Source: Natronobacterium gregoryi SP2 (GTDB lineage Archaea > Halobacteriota > Halobacteria > Halobacteriales > Natrialbaceae). Taken from it: a stretch of DNA of 64,000 bases. The position numbers were made by a program, and so were the translations under genes. The DNA lies in contig NC_019792.1 in assembly GCF_000230715.2 (NCBI RefSeq), forward strand, positions 1,116,001 to 1,180,000. The letters run 5' to 3'. Below are positions 3,668-14,681 of this stretch, piece by piece; position 1 is the stretch's first letter, and each line of letters opens with the position of its first letter. Under the pieces are notes generated by a model, which saw only the letters and a list, made by a program, of their open reading frames with translations, was not told the origin of the DNA and did not search any database.

Positions 3668-3862
3668 GTCCCTTCCAACGGTAACCGAACACAAAGTACT
3701 GGAGGATACAACCGGGCTCCGGGCGCACTCAGAGACGCGTTGCCGTCTGTGACGACTTTCTCCCGTGGTATCCATTGATAGTAATCCACCATACGACGGT
3801 ATCGAAGGAAAAAGTTATTCAATATGGGCCTGTGACGTGTGAGCTACTACAGGTGTCGCAAG

Positions 3863-4996
3863 ATGGTCGAAATGGAAACAACAGAACTGGAGACCGATCT
3901 CAGTCTGTTCAAATACGACAACCTCGAGCAGTTGCCGACCCACTACCGGGACCTCGAGGAAGCTGAACGGACCGAACGTATCGAGGCTGCACTCGCGGAA
4001 CTCGACGACGACGTCGTCGTCCTCGGACATAACTACCAGCGACGGGAAATCGTCGAACACGCCGATTTCATCGGCGACTCCTACCAACTCTCGAAGGAGG
4101 CGGCCGAGGCCGACGCCGAGTACGTCGTCTTCGGCGGTGTGACGTTCATGGCCGAGAGCGCGGACATTATCACCGACGACGACCAGACGGTGATCCTCCC
4201 GTCGATGGAGGCATCCTGTCCGATGGCTGGGATGGCCGAAGCGTTACAGGTCGACAGCGCGTGGGCCGAGATTACTGCGGCCGCACCCGACGCCGACATC
4301 GTCCCGATCACGTACATGAACTCCTACGCCGACCTGAAAGCCTTCTGTGCGAGCCACGGGGGACTCGTCTGTACGTCCTCGAACGCTCACCGCGCGTTCG
4401 AGTACGCCTTCGAACGTGGCGACAAGGTGCTTTTCCTGCCGGACAAACACCTCGGGGAGAACACGGCATACCGGTTGGGCATGGAAGACGAGATCGCCAA
4501 GTGGGACCCCTGGGACCCCGACGGCAAAGACGTCGAGGAGGTCGCTGAGAGCGACATCATCCTCTGGGACGGCTACTGTCAGGTGCACGAACGGTTCCGC
4601 GAAACACACATCGAGGAGATCCGGACAGACCACCCCGACGCGCAGGTCGTCGTCCACCCCGAATGTCGCCGCGAGGTCGTCGAGGCCGCAGACGTCGTCG
4701 GCTCGACGAGCACCATCTGTGAGACCGTCGCAAACGCTGACCCCGGCGAGACGTGGGCGATCGGCACCGAGATCCACCTCACGAACCACCTCCAGCGCTG
4801 GCATCCCGAGGTCGATGTCCTGGCGCTGTGTGGCGACGCCTGCATGGACTGTAACGCTATGCGACAGATCGATCCGAACTACCTCACGTGGGTACTCGAA
4901 GAGCTCGTCGAGGGCCGAGAACGCAACGTGATCGAAGTCGCGCCCGAAGAGAAAGAACTCGCGGAAGTCGCACTCGACCGCATGCTCGAGATCTAA
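3863..4996 (+). CDS. nadA: Quinolinate synthase
   Basis: Condenses iminoaspartate with dihydroxyacetone phosphate to quinolinate, the second step of de novo NAD synthesis. The 377-residue protein shows the three pseudo-repeat domains of NadA: GHNYQRREIVEHADFIGDS, the PSMEASCPMAGM and MNSYADLKAFC blocks, LPDKHLGENTAYRLGM, WDGYCQVHERF, HPECRREVVEAAD, and the C-terminal CGDACMDCNAMRQ. Conserved cysteines in the second, HPEC and C-terminal blocks suit the oxygen-sensitive 4Fe-4S cluster. The ATG at 3863 is preferred to the GTG at 3839; ATG 3872 is also possible. It heads a tight operon: nadB begins 8 nt after its stop. Confidence 0.97.
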   Translation: MVEMETTELETDLSLFKYDNLEQLPTHYRDLEEAERTERIEAALAELDDDVVVLGHNYQRREIVEHADFIGDSYQLSKEAAEADAEYVVFGGVTFMAESADIITDDDQTVILPSMEASCPMAGMAEALQVDSAWAEITAAAPDADIVPITYMNSYADLKAFCASHGGLVCTSSNAHRAFEYAFERGDKVLFLPDKHLGENTAYRLGMEDEIAKWDPWDPDGKDVEEVAESDIILWDGYCQVHERFRETHIEEIRTDHPDAQVVVHPECRREVVEAADVVGSTSTICETVANADPGETWAIGTEIHLTNHLQRWHPEVDVLALCGDACMDCNAMRQIDPNYLTWVLEELVEGRERNVIEVAPEEKELAEVALDRMLEI

Positions 4997-5004
4997 CTGT
5001 AACG

Positions 5005-6522
5005 ATGACTACGACTACCGAACACGACACGACGGACGTTCTCGTCGTCGGCAGCGGTATCGCCGGCTGTGCGGCCGCACTGGCCGCCGCGAGCGAGGGC
5101 AGCGAGGTACTACTCGTTACCAAAGCAACACGGCCGGACGGCGCGAGCACCGACTGGGCACAGGGCGGCATCTCGACGACCCGCGACGATCCGGAGAGCC
5201 TCGAGGAAGACATCCTCGAGGCCAGCGACGGCACCGCCGACCCCGAAGCCGTCGAGACACTCGTCGAACACGCCGACGACGCGGTCGAGGACGTCCTCGT
5301 CGAGACTCTCGAGATTCCCTTCGACGAAACCGACGGCGGCGAGTTCGACTACACTCGCGAGGCCGCCCACTCGAAGCGTCGCATTCTCCACGTCGACGCC
5401 GCGACGGGAACACACATCCTGCGGCCGTTCCTGCACTACGTCGACGACCACGAACGGATCGAGGTCCGCCAAGACACTGCCGCGCTCGAGTTGCTCACCG
5501 ACGAGGGTCGAGTCCGTGGCATCCTCACGGACGAAGAAACGACGGGCAAACCGATCTACGCCGGCGCGACCGTCCTCGCAACCGGCGGCATCGGGGCGCT
5601 CTACGAACGGTCGACCAACCCCGACGACGCGACCGGCGACGGGATCGCGATGGCCGCGCTGGCTGGTGCAGATGTCACAGACCTCGAGTACGTACAGTTC
5701 CATCCGACGGCCTACGCTGGGGACGACCCGTTCTTGCTCTCGGAAGCCCTGCGCGGCGAGGGCGCAGTCCTCCGGAACGCGAACGGCGACCGGTTCATGG
5801 ACGACTACCATCCCGACGCCGACCTCGCGCCACGGGACATCGTCGCCCGCGCGGTCGACGCCGAACGCGAGGAAACGGGAGAGGTCGTCCTGGACGTGAG
5901 TCCCCTCGAGGGCGAGTTCGAGGACGAGTTCCCCGGCATCGCCGAGAAGTGTCGCGACCGCGGGATCGACGGGGACGCGATTCCGGTCGCGCCCTGCGAA
6001 CACTTCCTCTGTGGCGGCGTCGACGTCGACGACCGCGGCCGCGCGAGCCTCGAAGGGCTGTACGCCGTCGGCGAGTGTGCTCGGACGGGCGTCCACGGCG
6101 CGAACCGGCTGGCGAGTACCAGCCTGCTCGAGGGGCTGGTCTGGGGCCTTCGAGCGGGCGAGGACGCCGCCAGTGACCACGAGCCGACCGTCGTCGAGGC
6201 CCCCGACCTCCGTAACAGCGATCCAGATCTTCCCGACCGGTTCGCCGCCGAGAAGTTCACCCGACTTCGGCAAACGATGGACGAGTACCTCGGCCTCGAG
6301 CGTACCCCCGACGAGATCGCCCGCGCAAGCGCCGTCCTCCGACGGCTCAAAGGCGAGGTCGACGCCTACGTTCGGACGCGAACTGCCCGGGACCTCTACG
6401 AACTGCGCAATGCGACCGTCGCGGCCCTGCTGATCGCTCGAGCGGCAAGCGAGAACGAGGAGTCGGTCGGCTGTCACTACGTCGAGGAGACGCAACCGAC
6501 GGGAGAAACCGCGGACGACTGA
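5005..6522 (+). CDS. nadB: L-aspartate oxidase
   Basis: Oxidises L-aspartate to iminoaspartate for NadA. The 505-residue flavoprotein starts with the FAD dinucleotide fold VLVVGSGIAGCAAALAAA, then has TDWAQGGISTT, the substrate-site region EYVQFHPTAY, ALRGEGAVLRN and the C-terminal FAD contact CGGVDVDDRGRASLEGLYAV followed by GECARTGVHGANRLASTSLL. These blocks separate it from succinate dehydrogenase flavoprotein, together with its place between nadA and nadC. The start ATG at 5005 follows the nadA stop by 8 nt; a longer frame upstream overlaps nadA and is rejected. Confidence 0.96.
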   Translation: MTTTTEHDTTDVLVVGSGIAGCAAALAAASEGSEVLLVTKATRPDGASTDWAQGGISTTRDDPESLEEDILEASDGTADPEAVETLVEHADDAVEDVLVETLEIPFDETDGGEFDYTREAAHSKRRILHVDAATGTHILRPFLHYVDDHERIEVRQDTAALELLTDEGRVRGILTDEETTGKPIYAGATVLATGGIGALYERSTNPDDATGDGIAMAALAGADVTDLEYVQFHPTAYAGDDPFLLSEALRGEGAVLRNANGDRFMDDYHPDADLAPRDIVARAVDAEREETGEVVLDVSPLEGEFEDEFPGIAEKCRDRGIDGDAIPVAPCEHFLCGGVDVDDRGRASLEGLYAVGECARTGVHGANRLASTSLLEGLVWGLRAGEDAASDHEPTVVEAPDLRNSDPDLPDRFAAEKFTRLRQTMDEYLGLERTPDEIARASAVLRRLKGEVDAYVRTRTARDLYELRNATVAALLIARAASENEESVGCHYVEETQPTGETADD

Positions 6523-6524
6523 CG

Positions 6525-7346
6525 ATGATCACCGATACACAGGTCGAACGCTGGCTCCGCGAAGACCTCGGCCACCACGACGTGACCAACGACGTTCCCG
6601 GCGAGACGACCGGCCGACTCGTCGCGAAAGAGGCGGGCGTCGTCGCCGGCCTCGAGGCCGCGACAGCCGTCTTCGACTATCTCGATGTCGACGTTACCGA
6701 ACGACTCGCGGACGGTACTGAAATCGACGCCGGTGACGAGGTCCTTCGCGTCGAGGGAGCCACACGCGAGGTGCTGCGGGGTGAGCGGGTCGCCGTGAAC
6801 CTGGCGGGTCACGCCTCGGGAATTGCGACGCGAACGCACGAGGCCGTACAGCGCGCACGAACCGAATCCGACGACGTGTACATTGCCGCGACCCGCAAGA
6901 CTACGCCCGGACTGCGCGGGCTCGAGAAGCGAGCCGTCGTCGCCGGCGGTGGCGACACCCACCGACTCGATCTCTCCCATATGGTGATGGTCAAGGACAA
7001 CCACGTCGCGGAGATGGGACTCGAGGGTGCGATCGAGCACTTCCAGGAGCGCACCTCCTTCGCGACGAAAATCGACGTGGAGGTCGAACACGTCGCCGAC
7101 ACACCGCGGGCTGCCGAGGCCGGCGCGGACGTCGTCTTGCTGGACAACATGACGCCTGCGGAGACGAGAAACGCCGTCGAAGCCCTCGCCGACTACGAGG
7201 ACGTGCTGGCGGAGGCAAGCGGCGGGATTACACTCGAGACCGTCGCCGACTACGCCGCGACGGGCGTCGACGTGATCTCGATGGGGGCGCTGACTCACTC
7301 CGCGCCGTCGCTGGATCTCTCCTTCCGAACGGGAGACGAGGGATAG
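6525..7346 (+). CDS. nadC: Nicotinate-nucleotide pyrophosphorylase (carboxylating)
   Basis: Transfers phosphoribose to quinolinate with loss of CO2, giving nicotinate mononucleotide; third gene of the NAD operon, starting 2 nt after the nadB stop. The 273-residue protein has the type II phosphoribosyltransferase blocks GERVAVNLAGHASGIATRT, ATRKTTPGLRGLEKRAV, GGGDTHRLDLSHMVMVKDNH, and the barrel strands IDVEVEHV, ADVVLLDNM and EASGGITLETVADYAATGVD. Length is typical. No sign of damage. Confidence 0.97.
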   Translation: MITDTQVERWLREDLGHHDVTNDVPGETTGRLVAKEAGVVAGLEAATAVFDYLDVDVTERLADGTEIDAGDEVLRVEGATREVLRGERVAVNLAGHASGIATRTHEAVQRARTESDDVYIAATRKTTPGLRGLEKRAVVAGGGDTHRLDLSHMVMVKDNHVAEMGLEGAIEHFQERTSFATKIDVEVEHVADTPRAAEAGADVVLLDNMTPAETRNAVEALADYEDVLAEASGGITLETVADYAATGVDVISMGALTHSAPSLDLSFRTGDEG

Positions 7347-7674
7347 CGGCGACGAGCCGAGCGGTCTTTGCCGTTCGAGCCCCACGCAACCGTGACCGCG
7401 CCGATCCGAACCTGCGAGGATCATGTAACGAGCACCCCAAAATTCTACCTCGGGAAAAGGGAGTAGCGGTTTATCCGATCCAGGTGGCTGCCGGTGGGCA
7501 TGGACGGAACACACGACACCGGACCGACAGCGTTCGAAGACGGACCGATAACCGTGCTCCTGCCGATGGAACGTCTCTGGAAGGAAGGGCCCGTGCGAGG
7601 GAGCAAACGCTGTCCGATCGGGAACGGAAACGGGAGCGGGAGAAGCGGGTGTCGGCTGGTGGTGACGACAGTCG
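7347..7674. other. Intergenic stretch after nadC, no supported gene
   Basis: There is one AT-rich patch (aaaattctacctc, then gcggtttatcc near 7467-7476) and one small open frame starting near 7500, but that frame runs through the L40e gene on the opposite strand and loses acidic composition halfway. I see no RNA gene. Confidence 0.4.
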
Positions 7675-7873: not shown

Positions 7874-8386
7874 TCAGTCCGTCGGCTCGTCGTCCGCTAG
7901 GTAGTCGTCCTGGACGGCGACGACCTCGCTCGAGTCGGTGCACTCGCTGTACCGCTGCAGGGGTTCCTCGTTGAGCGTCAAGAACGTGTCACCCCAGCGG
8001 AACGGCTCGAGCAGCGCTTCGGCTCGCTCCCACTCGTCGAAGAGACAGAGCGCGCCGGCGAGTGCTTCGACGGTCGTTAGCTGGAATGGACGGCCGTAGT
8101 TAATCGGGTTCGCAGCTACCAGAAACGGGAGGGCGCGGTGGACGCCGTTCATTCGGAACGCGGCTTCTTCGGCTGACTCCCACGAACAGTCGAGGGCGAC
8201 GAGCGTCTCGAGTCCCTCCTCACGGTCGGCCGGCGAGAGTGCCTGCTCGGCGTGCGGGTTGAGGACGACCCCGTAGGGCACCTGGGCCATCTTCCGGTAG
8301 AGGATCGCCTCGTCGAACTTCTCGAGGCGACGTGCGGTACACTTCTCGGGGTCGTCGTCGCCCTCGTAGTAGACGTGACACTCCAC
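7874..8386 (-). CDS. tsr3: rRNA aminocarboxypropyltransferase Tsr3 (DUF367)
   Basis: Transfers the aminocarboxypropyl group of S-adenosylmethionine to an N1-methylpseudouridine of small-subunit rRNA. The 170-residue protein has the family blocks [50 protein letters not shown] and [20 protein letters not shown]. An upstream ATG at 8446 would add 20 residues with no family likeness. The GTG at 8386 is chosen because it opens right at the conserved block and lies about 24 nt from a clear TATA element, the spacing of a leaderless haloarchaeal gene. Confidence 0.93.
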
Positions 8387-8403
8387 GTTCTCCCCGTCGG
8401 ACT

Positions 8404-8417
8404 CTAATATAAAAACA
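8404..8417 (-). promoter_or_regulatory. TATA-like promoter element of tsr3
   Basis: On the minus strand GTGTTTTTATATTAG is centred about 24 nt before the chosen GTG start, which implies transcription starting at or very near the start codon. The surrounding sequence is GC-rich, so the AT run stands out. Confidence 0.6.
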
Positions 8418-8545
8418 CTTTGCTCAGAGTAAGTACTACACAGCACCCCCCAAACACAGTGATTAATTATTATTGATGGAGTGGATGGGGCACCACCCTA
8501 GACAAGTAATATAATATTATGTGTTATGTTCGCAAATCCCAGGGG

Positions 8546-8581: not shown

Positions 8582-10240
8582 ATGCCAGAAGGTAACACGA
8601 CTCGAAGAACGGTGCTGAAGGGGGCGGGGATGGCTGGCGTGACCGGACTCACGGTCAGTCTCGCTGGATGTACCAGCGAAGAAAACGGGTCCGACGTCGA
8701 CGGTGCCGAGGAACTCGCGGGGGAAGTGCCGGAGATTCACCTCGTCGCACCGACCGCCGGGGCCAATCCCTTCCGGAACGAACTCGCGTCGGCCATCGAG
8801 GAGAACTGGGAGGAGATCGGGTTCGACGTCGACCTCGAGGAGTTACAGTTCAACGCACACGTCGACGAAGTCGTCGTCCAGCAGGACTACGACGCCTCGC
8901 TGCTGGGCTGGGGTGGGACGCCCGAACGGATCGACCCTCATACGTTCATCTACGACATGCACCACTCCGACAACACGCAGGAGGGGAACCGAAACACGCC
9001 GGGGTGGGAACACGACGAGTACGACGACCTGGCCGAACTACAGGTCACCCAGGTCGACGAGGACGAACGCCAGCAGACCGTCTACGAGGCCCAGGAGATC
9101 ATCGCCGAGAACCAGCCGCGAACGTACATCGCGAACGAAGGCGGCTACCACCCGTACGCAAGCGCTCGCGTCGAAAACGTCGATCCGACGCTTGGCGAGG
9201 GACTCAATTCGTTCTGGAACATGATCTCGGCGACGCCGACCGACGACGACACGGTCCGGTTCGGCTACCCCTCCGAAATCATCTCGCTGAACCCCATGCA
9301 AGACCTGGCGACTCCCGACCGCCAGTTCGTCCGCCTGCTCTACGACCAACTGTTCCGCATCGGCCCGGACGGCTTCCCCGAGCCGTGGCTCGCGACGGAC
9401 GATCCCGAGATCGAAGACGGCGGAATGACCTACACCGTCGAGCTCCGAGACGACCTCACCTTCCACGACGGCGAAGACCTCACCGTCAACGACGTCGAGT
9501 TCACCTACGAGCTGTACGCCGACTCGCCGACCTACGGCGACCTCGTCGAGATCATCGACGAGATCGACACCGCCGGCAACGAGATCACGTTCCACCTCGA
9601 GGAGCAGTACGCCCCGTTCACGGCGAACGTCCTCGGGCAGGTGTACATCTTCCCCGAACACATCTGGGGCGACGTCGCACCCGAGGAGCTCACGGACTTC
9701 GAGGACGAGAACTGGATCGGCAGCGGCCCGTTCCAGTTCCGCGACTGGGAGCGCCAGGCCGAACTCCAACTCGAGGCGTTCGACGATCACTTCGAGACGC
9801 CAAACGCCGACGAGTTCATCCGAATCCCGGGCGAGGACACGTCCCAGCTCGTCAACGACCTCGAGGCTGGCCAGATCGACATGGTCGGTGCCGTTCCGCA
9901 ACCGACCGCGGTCGATCGAGCCAGAGACGACGACGACCTCGATCTCGCCGAGTTCAACGCGATCGGCTACGCGATGATCGAGTACAACACGCGCCGCGAA
10001 CCGTTCGACGACGTGGCCGTTCGTCGGGCGCTGTCGTACGGCGTTCCCAAAGAAGAGTACGTCGAGTTCATCCGCGACGGCATGGGGACGGTGACCCACA
10101 CGACGATCTCGGAACACAACGAGTTCTGGCACAACCCCGACGTCGAGGCGTTCTCCGAGGACCTCGAGGCGGCTCGGGAAGAACTCGCCGACGCGGGCTA
10201 CGGCTGGGACGACGGCCGTCTCCACTACGGCGCGGAGTAG
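8582..10240 (+). CDS. Peptide-type ABC transporter solute-binding protein (SBP family 5), circularly permuted, Tat lipoprotein
   Basis: Cell-surface binding protein of the importer encoded downstream. Residues 1-30 are a twin-arginine lipoprotein signal: RRTVLKGAGMAG, then lipobox SLAGC. The mature part has all sections of SBP family 5 but in swapped order. Residues about 50-217 look like the usual C-terminal part (GFDVDLEELQFNAHVDEVV, YDASLLGWGG, IDPHTFIYDMHHS, EDERQQTVYEAQEIIAENQP). Residues about 220-552 look like the usual N-terminal and middle parts (VRFGYPSEIISLNP, YTVELRDDLTFHDGEDLTVN, WIGSGPFQFRDW, FDDVAVRRALSYGVPKEEYV) and stop at ADAGYGWDDGRLHYG, where a normal protein would continue into the other block. 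ATG 8582 is chosen because it directly precedes the signal peptide. Confidence 0.93.
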   Translation: MPEGNTTRRTVLKGAGMAGVTGLTVSLAGCTSEENGSDVDGAEELAGEVPEIHLVAPTAGANPFRNELASAIEENWEEIGFDVDLEELQFNAHVDEVVVQQDYDASLLGWGGTPERIDPHTFIYDMHHSDNTQEGNRNTPGWEHDEYDDLAELQVTQVDEDERQQTVYEAQEIIAENQPRTYIANEGGYHPYASARVENVDPTLGEGLNSFWNMISATPTDDDTVRFGYPSEIISLNPMQDLATPDRQFVRLLYDQLFRIGPDGFPEPWLATDDPEIEDGGMTYTVELRDDLTFHDGEDLTVNDVEFTYELYADSPTYGDLVEIIDEIDTAGNEITFHLEEQYAPFTANVLGQVYIFPEHIWGDVAPEELTDFEDENWIGSGPFQFRDWERQAELQLEAFDDHFETPNADEFIRIPGEDTSQLVNDLEAGQIDMVGAVPQPTAVDRARDDDDLDLAEFNAIGYAMIEYNTRREPFDDVAVRRALSYGVPKEEYVEFIRDGMGTVTHTTISEHNEFWHNPDVEAFSEDLEAAREELADAGYGWDDGRLHYGAE

Positions 10241-10347
10241 CGACTGGCCCGCGTCGTCGGTCCCAATCATGGCTTCGAGACACGAAATACGATACGAGTT
10301 TCCATGCAATATATGATAACGACTAGCAAACTAAGGTGGGGAGATCG

Positions 10348-11328
10348 ATGGGGCTGAGAGCGTACGTCGTTAGGCGTCTCCTCCAGCTCGTCGTGACCTT
10401 CTGGGCGTTCTTTACGCTCCTGTTCGTCCTCTTTCGAATGATGCCCGGCGATCCGACGTCGATGTTTATCATGGACGGGATGACGCCGGAGCAACGCGAA
10501 CAGCGGATCGCAGAGCTCGGGTTAGATCAGCCGTTGTACGTTCAGTACGTCGAGTACTTACAACAACTGCTAACTGGAGACTTCGGACAATCGTTCATCT
10601 ACAACGATCCCGTCATCGACATCATCACCGTACGGTTCATGAACACGATCGTCCTGATGGGGACGGCGCTGTTTTTCGCCTACGTCATCGGGATCACGTT
10701 CGGTGCACTGATGGGGTGGTGGCGCGACTCGCGGTTCGAACGCGGCGGCATCGTCGTGACGCTGATGGCCCGCTCCTCGCCCGAGTTCTGGGTCGGCATC
10801 GTCCTCTTGGTCGTGTTCGTCTTCTGGCTCGGCTGGTTCCCCTCGAGCGGGATGCGGACGACCGGAGGCGAACTCGGGGGCGGGTTCGTCGCGAGATACG
10901 GGTCGCTCGACTTTCTGCATCACCTGTTCCTTCCGGCGTTGACGGGTGCGATCGTCTACCTGGCGACGCCGACCCTGCTGATGCGCTCGACGATGCTCGA
11001 CGTGTTAAACGCCGACTTCATCGAGATCAAGAAAGCGGAGGGACTGCCCGAACGGACAGTACTGTACAAACACGCCGCGCGGAACTCGATTCTCCCCATC
11101 GTGACGGTCGCCGCGATCGCGACCGGCGCTGCGATGGGTGGTTCGGTCGTCATCGAGACAGTGTTCAACTGGCCCGGCATGGGCCGGGAGATGGTGAGTG
11201 CGGTCAACCAGAACGACTACCCGCTCGCTATGGCGGCGTTTTTCCTCATGGGATCAGTCGTGATAATAATGAATTTCGTCGCTGACCTGCTATACGTCTA
11301 CCTCGATCCGAGGGTGGAGTACGAATGA
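10348..11328 (+). CDS. ABC transporter permease, DppB type
   Basis: First membrane subunit of the peptide importer, 326 residues. It has the DppB-type N-terminus MGLRAYVVRRLLQLVVTFW, then FRMMPGDP, GDFGQSF, and the EAA loop region around IEIKKAEGLPERTVLYKHA and ILPIVTVAAIATGAAMGGS, with six membrane spans. A GTG at 10336 would add four residues; the ATG at 10348 fits the family. A gap of 107 bp after the binding-protein gene holds GCAATATATGAT (about 10302-10313), so these genes may also have their own promoter. Confidence 0.94.
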   Translation: MGLRAYVVRRLLQLVVTFWAFFTLLFVLFRMMPGDPTSMFIMDGMTPEQREQRIAELGLDQPLYVQYVEYLQQLLTGDFGQSFIYNDPVIDIITVRFMNTIVLMGTALFFAYVIGITFGALMGWWRDSRFERGGIVVTLMARSSPEFWVGIVLLVVFVFWLGWFPSSGMRTTGGELGGGFVARYGSLDFLHHLFLPALTGAIVYLATPTLLMRSTMLDVLNADFIEIKKAEGLPERTVLYKHAARNSILPIVTVAAIATGAAMGGSVVIETVFNWPGMGREMVSAVNQNDYPLAMAAFFLMGSVVIIMNFVADLLYVYLDPRVEYE

Positions 11329-12263
11329 GTACCGAACGAACCTCCCCGGTCGACGCCGCAACCGCCACCATCGGCGACGGCGTCAGCTACGTCCAGACGA
11401 AACTCGAGGTCTTCGAGGGAGACCGCCTCGGCCAGATCGGTCTGGTCATCCTGGCAGTCTTCCTCTTCGTCGGGATCTTCGCCCGGCCGTATACGCTCGA
11501 GTTGCTGGATCTCACGATCCCGGGGCTCGCACCGCACGACCCCACCGAACGGGCCGTTGGCGGGCGACTCGAAGGGCCGTCGGCCGACCATCCGTTCGGG
11601 ACGACCGACATGGGTCGGGACGTGCTCTCGCAGTTGATCGCGGGGACTCGCGTGACGCTGCTTGTCGGGAGCCTCGCGGCCTTCATGGCCGTGTTCATCG
11701 GGACGAACGTCGGCCTGATCAGCGCCTACTTCGGCGGCTGGGTCGACGACACGTTGATGCGAATCACCGACGTCGTCTACGGCGTCCCGTTCCTGCCCTT
11801 TGCGATCGTCCTGGTGGCGATCCTTGGCAGCAGTCTCTTCAACATCATCCTCGCGATCGTGTTGATCCTGTGGCGATCGACGGCGCGGGTGATCCGTTCG
11901 CAGGTGTTGAGTCACAAACAGCGGCCGTACGTCGAGAGCGCACAAGCGATTGGAGCCGGTCACGTACGGATCATGTACCGGCACATCCTCCCGAACGTCT
12001 TGCCGCTTACCTTCCTGTATGCGGCCTTCGCGGTCGCGTGGGCGGTCATCGCCGAGGCGAGCCTCTCGTTTCTCGGCTTTGGCGACCCCGACATGCTCTC
12101 GTGGGGTGAGATGATCTACAACGTCTACACCGCCAACGCGATCCGCGAGGCCTGGTGGTGGGTCTTCCCGCCGGGCATCGCGATCATGCTGTTCGTGATG
12201 GCAGTGTTCTTCATCGGTCGCACGCTCGAGAAAGAGGTCAATCCGGAGCTCCAACATCAATAA
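11325..12263 (+). CDS. ABC transporter permease, DppC type
   Basis: Second membrane subunit, 312 residues, overlapping the previous stop by ATGA, which points to coupled translation. Signature blocks are DHPFGTTDMGRDVLSQLIAG (about residues 87-106), TRVTLLVGSL, the EAA loop with YVESAQAIGAGHVRIMYRHI, and LSFLGFGDPDMLSWGEMI. The N-terminal 40 residues are a soluble extension before the first span. Confidence 0.94.
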   Translation: MSTERTSPVDAATATIGDGVSYVQTKLEVFEGDRLGQIGLVILAVFLFVGIFARPYTLELLDLTIPGLAPHDPTERAVGGRLEGPSADHPFGTTDMGRDVLSQLIAGTRVTLLVGSLAAFMAVFIGTNVGLISAYFGGWVDDTLMRITDVVYGVPFLPFAIVLVAILGSSLFNIILAIVLILWRSTARVIRSQVLSHKQRPYVESAQAIGAGHVRIMYRHILPNVLPLTFLYAAFAVAWAVIAEASLSFLGFGDPDMLSWGEMIYNVYTANAIREAWWWVFPPGIAIMLFVMAVFFIGRTLEKEVNPELQHQ

Positions 12264-13354
12264 TGACGCTACTCGATATCAACGGACTGAAGACGTACTA
12301 CCGGGCCGACGACGGCTGGGTTCGTGCGACGGACGACGCCTCGCTGTCGATCGAACGCGGAGAGACCGTCGGCCTGGTTGGCGAAAGTGGCAGCGGCAAG
12401 ACGACACTCGCAAAGTCGATCATCCGGTTACTACCGGACAACGCCGAGATCAGGGACGGATCGATCGAGTTCGAGGGGACCGAGGTGACCGACCTCTCTG
12501 ACCGGGAACTGCGAAAGCAGATCCGCTGGTCGGAGATTTCGATGATCCCACAGAACGCGATGAATGGATTCGATCCCGTCTACACCGTTGGCGAGCAGAT
12601 CGTCGAAGTCGTCACGTACCACGAGAACGATACCTCGAAAGCGGAGGCTCGCGAACGCGCTCGCGACCTGTTCGACGACCTCGGGATCGACCCGGATCGC
12701 GTCGACGACTATCCCCACCAGTTCTCGGGGGGGATGGCTCAGCGAGCGATGATCGCACTTGCACTCTCCCTTTCACCGTCGCTCGTGCTCGCGGACGAAC
12801 CGACGACGGCCCTCGACGTCGTGATTCAGGATCGAATCCTGGACACGATCAAGGAGATGCAAACGGAGATAAACAGCGCGATGATCATGGTCACCCACGA
12901 CATGTCGGTCGTCAGTGAAACCTGCGACCGCATCGCCGTGGTCTACGGTGGCCGCATCGTCGAGATCGCCGACGCCGAGACGATCATCACGAACCCCCGC
13001 CATCCGTACACGCTCGGACTGCGAAACGCGTTCCCGGACATCAGTGACGACGACCAGGAACTCATCTCCATCCCCGGCACGCCGCCGGACCTCGTCGATC
13101 CTGGCGAAGGCTGTCGATTCGCTCCACGCTGTCCGTTCGCTCGAGAGGAGTGCTGGAAAGCAACGCCAGAGACCGAATCGTACGGCAACGGGCACCGGGT
13201 CAAGTGCCACCGAGCCGACGAGATCGACTACCTCCAGGAAGAAGCCGGGAAGAAGTCGACCTGGCACGACCAGGAACTGGGTCGTCCAAGCGACGACACA
13301 GCGCCGATCGGCGGGGACCAGAAAGCGGAATCGGAGGTGGAACTCGATGACTGA
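12263..13354 (+). CDS. ABC transporter ATP-binding protein, DppD type
   Basis: ATPase subunit, 363 residues, starting at an ATG that overlaps the previous stop (TAATG). Walker [10 protein letters not shown] lies near residue 40, the Q-loop is in [13 protein letters not shown], signature [12 protein letters not shown], Walker [14 protein letters not shown], and switch His in MVTHDMSVV. The C-terminal oligopeptide domain has [16 protein letters not shown], the Cys-rich motif seen in DppD/DppF proteins, often linked to an iron-sulfur cluster. It ends with a charged tail. Confidence 0.95.
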
Positions 13355-14681
13355 ATCGCTCGAGACCGACCGTCCCGCCGACGCCGACGCGTCGTACAAG
13401 TTGCAAGTCGAGAACCTCGAGAAACACTTCCCCGTCAACACTGGGCTCGTCTCGCGGATTCTCCGAGGAGAGAGCAACGACGCGGTCAAGGCCGTCGACG
13501 GCGTCTCCCTGTCGATCCGGGAGGGCGAAGCGTTCGGCTTGGCCGGTGAATCCGGTTGTGGCAAGACGACGCTTGGCAAAAGCGCCATCAGGCTGCTCGA
13601 GCCGACCGGGGGCGAGATTTACTTCGACGGGAACGAGATCACCGACGTCGGCGGACAGGAACTCAACGAGTTCCGTCGTGAAGCCCAGATCATCCACCAG
13701 GACCCGTACAAGTCGCTCAACCCACGGTTTACCGTCTACGAGTGGGTCAAAGAACCGCTGGACGTCCACGACATCGGGACGAAAGAAGAACGCGACGCCC
13801 GCGTCTACGAGACGATCGAACAGGCCGGCCTCGAGCCCGCGGCGGCCTACGCTCACGAGTATCCGAGCGAACTCAGCGGCGGAGAGCGCCAGCGCGTCGG
13901 CATCGCAAGGGCGCTCGCACTCGAGCCGTCGTTCCTGCTTGCCGACGAACCCGCGAGCATGCTCGACGTCTCGATTCGTGCGAGCATCCTCGATCTGTTC
14001 AAGCGACTGCAGTCGGAGTTAGGATTGACCGCGGTCTACATCAGCCACGACCTCTCCCTGCTCAAACACATGTGTGACCGGATCGGGATCATGTACCTCG
14101 GCGAACTGGTCGAGGTCGGTCCGGCCGATCAGATTATCAACGACCCGAAACACCCCTACACGCAAGCGCTGGTCTCTTCGGTTCCCCGAATCGATCCGAG
14201 CGAGAACCGCGAGCGGATCGAACTCGTCGGCGAGGTGCCGGACCCGGTCGACGTCCCGAGTGGCTGTCGGTTCCACCCACGCTGTCCGAAGATTGTCCAG
14301 CCCGAAGGGTACGAGATGGAGCAAGATCACTGGCGAGCGGTCGTGAACCTCCGGCACGACCTGTTACAGGGTGAACTCACTCTACCGGAAACCGAAGACG
14401 AAGACGAAGAGACGCCGGAAGCGATCCGCGAAGCCTACGACATCCCCACAGTACTCTCCGATGCCGACGCCGAGCGGGTACTCTCGGAAGCGCTCGAGAC
14501 GACGGTAGCTGGCGACCGCGACGCTGCCCGCGAGCAACTCGCAACGGCGTTTGCGACGCCGTGTGAACGCGACGGACTCGAGACCCACCAGATCACGAGC
14601 GAGCAGACAGCAAAGTGCGTTCGGTACGACGACGACCCGCGATACGGTCCCGAGGGTGGCGGCAGCTACGACCCGAACTGA
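13347..14681 (+). CDS. ABC transporter ATP-binding protein, DppF type, with C-terminal extension
   Basis: Second ATPase, 444 residues, overlapping the DppD-type gene by 8 nt. It has Walker [11 protein letters not shown]-loop [13 protein letters not shown], signature [15 protein letters not shown], Walker [14 protein letters not shown], switch [14 protein letters not shown], and the oligopeptide-domain cysteines in [11 protein letters not shown]. Beyond the usual end (about residue 325) there is an extra acidic section of roughly 115 residues, beginning [20 protein letters not shown] and ending in [20 protein letters not shown], whose role is unknown. A longer upstream frame overlaps the DppD gene and is rejected. 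Confidence 0.93.

Follow-up and report, generated by a model that had tools for sequence, protein, structure and literature searches.

An open reading frame on the plus strand at positions 8582-10240 of the window (the whole stretch analysed here, 64,000 nucleotides of Natronobacterium gregoryi SP2) encodes a protein of 552 amino acids with a Tat lipoprotein leader, carrying RR at residues 8-9 and the lipobox cysteine at residue 30. The locus raises the question of whether a family-5 solute-binding protein (SBP) can carry the segments of its fold in rotated order and still serve an ABC importer. Based on our results, the protein is very probably a complete cluster-C fold, circularly permuted, that serves the neighbouring DppBCDF-type importer as its substrate-binding lipoprotein (Table 1). 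The Tat lipobox, the export signal of an SBP_bac_5 protein, is present directly in the sequence, and RR8-9, G29 and C30 are invariant in 24 relatives.

Table 1. Parts of the permuted SBP gene and the importer genes that follow it (positions in the window)
Feature	Position	Strand	Basis
Tat lipoprotein leader, residues 1-30, TRRTVLKGAGMAGVTGLTVSLAGC, lipobox Cys30	8582..8671	+	sequence
Acidic linker past the lipid-bearing cysteine, residues 31-46	8672..8719	+	sequence; pLDDT <50 for residues 1-38
Moved segment, residues 47-216, counterpart of the C-terminal region in ordinary family-5 SBPs (DppA precursor ~370-535)	8720..9229	+	
Joint TPTDDD, residues 217-222, from old C-terminus to old N-terminus	9230..9247	+	
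Residues 223-550, counterpart of the N-terminal and middle regions in ordinary family-5 SBPs	9248..10231	+	PF00496 positions 2-284; VIA-align/Foldseek, 219-552 onto N-terminal two-thirds of AppA, NikZ, DppA
New C-terminus (AE) and stop codon	10232..10240	+	sequence
Permease DppB, BPD_transp_1 with N-terminal domain	10336..11328	+	Pfam; conserved order
Permease DppC	11325..12263	+	Pfam; conserved order
ATPase DppD, ABC_tran and oligo_HPY	12263..13354	+	Pfam; conserved order
ATPase DppF, start codon inferred	13347..14681	+	ORF; conserved order

Segment order and predicted fold

The earlier note on this DNA had read the protein as a family-5 fold in swapped order, and the Pfam and PDB-chain matches bear this out: the usual C-terminal part lies at residues ~47-216 and is followed by the N-terminal and middle parts at residues ~223-550. 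SBP_bac_5 (PF00496) is the sole Pfam-A family on the protein, at 226.9 bits against a membership cut-off of 32.4, and NCBIfam gave weak matches, far under the cut-offs. In native order the PF00496 alignment is not collinear; it is split into two inverted stretches, the best of which places residues 266-546 on profile positions 2-284. When residues 223-552 were put ahead of the front segment, as the note had proposed, a single stretch covered profile positions 2-366 of 368 and the score rose to 237.6 bits. Each segment is present once and in a single frame, so that we are dealing with a permutation and not, as the note had rightly set aside, a truncation. As the C part lies ahead of the N part, and not in the canonical N-to-C order of SBP_bac_5, the protein is a topological variant of this family and not an ordinary member. 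It has the features that define a circular permutant: the segments occur once each, their order is rotated, the old ends are joined and the new ends lie in a loop, the chain being cut right after AGYGWDDGRLHYG, at the end of residues 223-550.

Comparison with individual proteins gave the same picture. With phmmer, residues ~224-543 matched the N-terminal two-thirds of the PDB chains of AppA, CcNikZ-II and DppA, and residues ~40-194 their C-terminal third, i.e., in inverted order; among the PDB chains listed in the profile search, there was no end-to-end match in a single piece. We also scored every rotation of the mature protein against conventional SBPs. A conventional haloarchaeal SBP, the most informative relative, gave a rise from 366 to 520 when the cut was placed at residues 211-219, and E. 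coli DppA gave one from 276 to 339; against E. coli GsiB no rotation brought any gain. As a control, DppA itself was rotated; of nine conventional proteins, eight showed no gain and one a gain of a single point. Chance is excluded, since the same order is conserved in dozens of full-length relatives at 27-92% identity.

From a 24-row alignment of permuted relatives, AlphaFold2 predicted a single protein with confidence, and not a pair of separate incomplete domains (mean pLDDT 89.3, pTM 0.85, confident from residue ~45 to the end). The front segment mostly exceeds pLDDT 90 inside this model; folded alone with the same relatives, it reached pLDDT 70.2 and pTM 0.44, a poor model, so that this segment depends on the rest of the protein to fold. 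Foldseek and VIA-align, both of which follow chain order and returned rows for residues ~219-552 only, matched the N-terminal two-thirds of AppA, NikZ and DppA. The top Z (25.5) was that of residues 219-552 against AppA, in a sequential alignment with the front half outside it.

Mapped on DppA, the break falls at about precursor residue 370, which we take to be in the C-lobe, a lobe assignment that draws partly on general knowledge of the DppA structure. Of the note's further proposal, that the swap shifts the lipid anchor relative to the membrane partners, what stands is that the anchor sits on another part of the protein. A short linker would join the old ends, the new ends would lie in a loop of the C-lobe past the conserved ...aAGY helix, and the lipid anchor would now be attached to the C-lobe. 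The lipid at Cys30 would pull on this lobe, and not on the one in which the chain of an ordinary member begins and ends. The joint varies in length across the permuted family (median 4, up to ~86 residues), and three haloarchaeal permuted SBPs (L175, L177 and L179) have long low-complexity linkers at this site, with GNDT-like repeats and a length of up to ~95 residues. In divergent members such as L175 and L179 the joint thus tolerates these inserts, as would fit a surface linker between the old ends.

Distribution and origins of the swapped order

A survey of haloarchaeal homologues, also suggested by the note, found the same swapped order in relatives of the protein. For this classification, the family alignment was split into a C-part and an N-part profile, and the profile that comes first decides. 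The haloarchaeal relatives and six alphaproteobacterial relatives were permuted by this measure; E. coli DppA, OppA, NikA and GsiB and the proteins from Cytobacillus and Fusobacterium were conventional. N. gregoryi itself has two further permuted paralogs (L002 and L008) and three conventional SBPs (L004, L005 and L007); in L003 and L006, of the same genome, the half-profile did not detect the C part. The two permuted paralogs lie side by side (G000:C1:618498-622999, minus strand), and several further haloarchaea, among them G016, G088 and G092, have such adjacent pairs as well.

The family was found in at least 253 of the 391 haloarchaeal genomes sampled and in 70 of 86 genera (match at E <= 1e-80), and the haloarchaeal matches listed cover both halves. 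Seven odd-looking matches, mostly partial or low-scoring, were fetched and all seven were permuted. Relatives that are collinear with the protein over their full length, and hence permuted, occur in many genera and in haloarchaea such as Natronorubrum, Natrialba, Halorubrum, Natronococcus and Natronomonas. The bacterial distribution was drawn from plasmid records only, with permuted relatives on alphaproteobacterial plasmids of Nitratireductor, Ketogulonicigenium, Roseomonas, Microvirga, Neorhizobium and Maritalea; by eye, these have ordinary signal peptides and no lipobox. The database records name the permuted proteins merely "ABC transporter substrate-binding protein", and thus the swapped order has apparently been overlooked. 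That the protein is an ordinary collinear SBP, its swap a misreading or an artefact of assembly or annotation, is scarcely conceivable given the recurrence of the same order in this many haloarchaeal genomes and in alphaproteobacteria, and the split, inverted PF00496 match already refutes it.

The permutation at this loop appears to have three or more separate origins, one of them inside the genus Archaeoglobus. In a tree from alignments in canonical order (a quick version without bootstraps, its groups named after inspection of the tree), the permuted proteins of haloarchaea and of alphaproteobacteria group together (SH-aLRT 96), the A. fulgidus pair is nested among conventional Archaeoglobus proteins (98, 99), and the permuted protein of another genome, G573, stands elsewhere. 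AU tests rejected a single clade of all permuted proteins (p 1.7e-38), a single clade of the permuted Archaeoglobaceae proteins (p 5.7e-66), and a clade of the large group with G573 (p 1.3e-4). All three occurrences fall at the same loop: the large group and the A. fulgidus type are cut where the ...aAGY helix ends, and G573 is cut at the end of this same helix and continues into a tail. The G573 ORF (L107 / L126) ends with a PGF-CTERM motif (PF18204, 19.6 bits), and its product seems to be anchored at the new C-terminus and not by an N-terminal lipid. The alphaproteobacterial permuted SBPs fall at two places inside the haloarchaeal clade, one of them weakly supported in the tree, a placement that suggests at least two transfers between domains.

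Most relatives in Archaeoglobaceae are conventional, with permuted genes in four genomes, and these account for two of the independent permutations. In the A. fulgidus-type permuted gene (G514), block C (4709-5184) precedes block N (5213-6168), and in a conventional Archaeoglobus gene (G490), block N (6096-7051) precedes block C (7062-7537); both DNA blocks are ~79-80% identical between the two genes, with their order swapped. Furthermore, the G514 joint SEEQKD-TITIGV resembles the linker VEEK-AITIGV that stands ahead of the N part in the G490 protein, a likeness predicted by a model in which tandem copies fuse and shed their outer parts. The N. gregoryi gene most likely arose when an ordinary gene was duplicated in tandem, after which the first copy lost its N-terminal part and the second its C-terminal part. 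For the large haloarchaeal clade, whose ancestral order is unrooted in these data, this route is proposed by analogy with Archaeoglobus only. A permutation does require a duplication or fusion step, and one could therefore imagine a chimera, in which the front segment and the remainder come from two SBP genes through the fusion of two incomplete SBPs. We find this very unlikely, as both Archaeoglobus blocks match one conventional gene at ~80% DNA identity, and in the haloarchaeal protein each half is complete and present once, within what AlphaFold2 shows as one interdependent protein. A further and rather doubtful idea would be that this one C-lobe loop of family 5 is a natural permutation hotspot, and that the swapped order spread among haloarchaea and onward to alphaproteobacteria through a functional benefit and not by mere tolerance. 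Candidate benefits would be an anchor and free ends placed off the usual lobe, an altered folding order, or altered cleft dynamics.

Operon context and ligand site

The gene lies in the context that marks SBP_bac_5 proteins, with Opp/Dpp permease and ATPase genes adjacent. The order SBP-DppB-C-D-F is kept in all 12 haloarchaeal loci with flanks and in five of the six alphaproteobacterial loci; in the sixth, of Maritalea, an ATPase gene comes directly behind the SBP gene, ahead of the permeases. The 552-residue protein probably works as an ordinary receptor of the adjacent importer, in which the ligand would be bound in the usual Venus-flytrap cleft and handed to DppBC. A departure from the importer for a sensor or scavenger role, with the operon context as a relic, would fit the orphan SBPs without permeases that occur in the protein family (the conventional G490 gene is an example) and the missing equivalent of DppA R383. 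However, the SBP gene has kept its permease neighbours in haloarchaea and alphaproteobacteria alike, across identities of 27-92% for the SBP and 41-97% for DppB, and we consider such a change of role very unlikely next to that of an importer receptor.

The divergent neighbour at 7874-8446 (minus strand) encodes a Tsr3-like protein of ribosome biogenesis with Ribo_biogen_C and Fer4_RLI domains, and this gene is conserved upstream of the SBP gene in seven of the compared loci. Further upstream, ORFs at 3839-7346 (plus strand) read by eye as NadA, NadB and NadC of NAD biosynthesis. No nadABC genes were found next to the SBP operons of relatives in the flanks compared, and these neighbours were for this reason dropped as a clue to the substrate.

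In DppA, the dipeptide is held at its amino group by D436 and at its carboxyl group by R383 (precursor numbering; PMC12136057). In the permuted protein, the acidic residue is kept, as E115 of the moved segment stands at the D436 position, and the carboxylate-binding R383 is lost, its place being taken by A59. The protein thus lacks half of the pair of a DppA-type dipeptide receptor, and the change from R383 to A59 makes a DppA-like dipeptide mode unlikely. The substrate may be peptide-like or another amino compound. The Ketogulonicigenium and Roseomonas plasmid operons with a permuted SBP (L101 and L102) have M20/M28 peptidase and hydantoinase/oxoprolinase genes nearby, and three haloarchaeal paralogs (L031, L034 and L037) adjoin ORFs that look by eye like M20 amidohydrolases. 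The peptidase and hydantoinase neighbours hint at N-acyl or cyclic amino compounds as possible substrates. In a comparison of the DppB scoop loop, residues E41/R42 of the E. coli protein proved uninformative, as they are absent from conventional systems as well.

Comparison with known permuted binding proteins

Natural circular permutation is usually met in comparisons of distant proteins, at a time when the event is long past. In the present case, one family holds permutations of several ages, from an ancient and diversified clade, with several paralogs per haloarchaeal genome, to the swap within Archaeoglobus, where the permuted/ordinary pair at ~80% DNA identity makes the cost or benefit of a permutation directly measurable. 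With the known family-5/cluster C SBPs (DppA, OppA, AppA, NikA), the protein shares the same segments once each, the DppBCDF operon and the acidic residue at the D436 position. It differs from them in its swapped order and in the site of its ends, as both the lipid-anchored N-terminus and the C-terminus are placed in the C-lobe loop, at about residue 370 of the DppA precursor. In the literature searched, with subscription journals mostly outside its reach, no prior report of a permuted family-5 SBP could be identified. Binding-protein permutation is known in other clusters; the family-5 case stands out mainly in how widespread it is and in having arisen repeatedly, in part recently.

Among the permuted relations between binding-protein folds is the circular-permutation family found with CPSARST, which relates glycine-betaine-binding proteins to molybdate-binding proteins and CysB (PMC2395249). 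The relation there is one of structure, between distant families with <24% identity, whereas here the permutation occurs in one sequence family, down to a swap within a genus. A closer parallel is TpMglB-2 (Tp0684), a circularly permuted glucose-binding lipoprotein for which the name "Type Ic / Cluster Bc" was proposed (PMC4990184). It is likewise a naturally permuted binding lipoprotein of an ABC importer, conserved in its clade and still ligand-binding; it differs in having a cluster B fold, another break point, by which three strands of the N-lobe have been shifted to the C-terminus, a sugar ligand and one described clade. We ruled out membership in Cluster Bc for the N. gregoryi protein, whose only Pfam match is to family 5 and whose break lies elsewhere. 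Membrane tethering was proposed as the reason for permuted binding proteins in the TpMglB-2 study (PMC4990184), a proposal for which the permuted family-5 proteins can serve as a test. Tethering alone is no explanation here, since the alphaproteobacterial members are without a lipobox and the haloarchaeal paralogs of conventional order also appear to be lipoproteins. Unlike TpMglB-2, the family-5 case combines at least three apparently independent events at one loop with bacterial members that are untethered.
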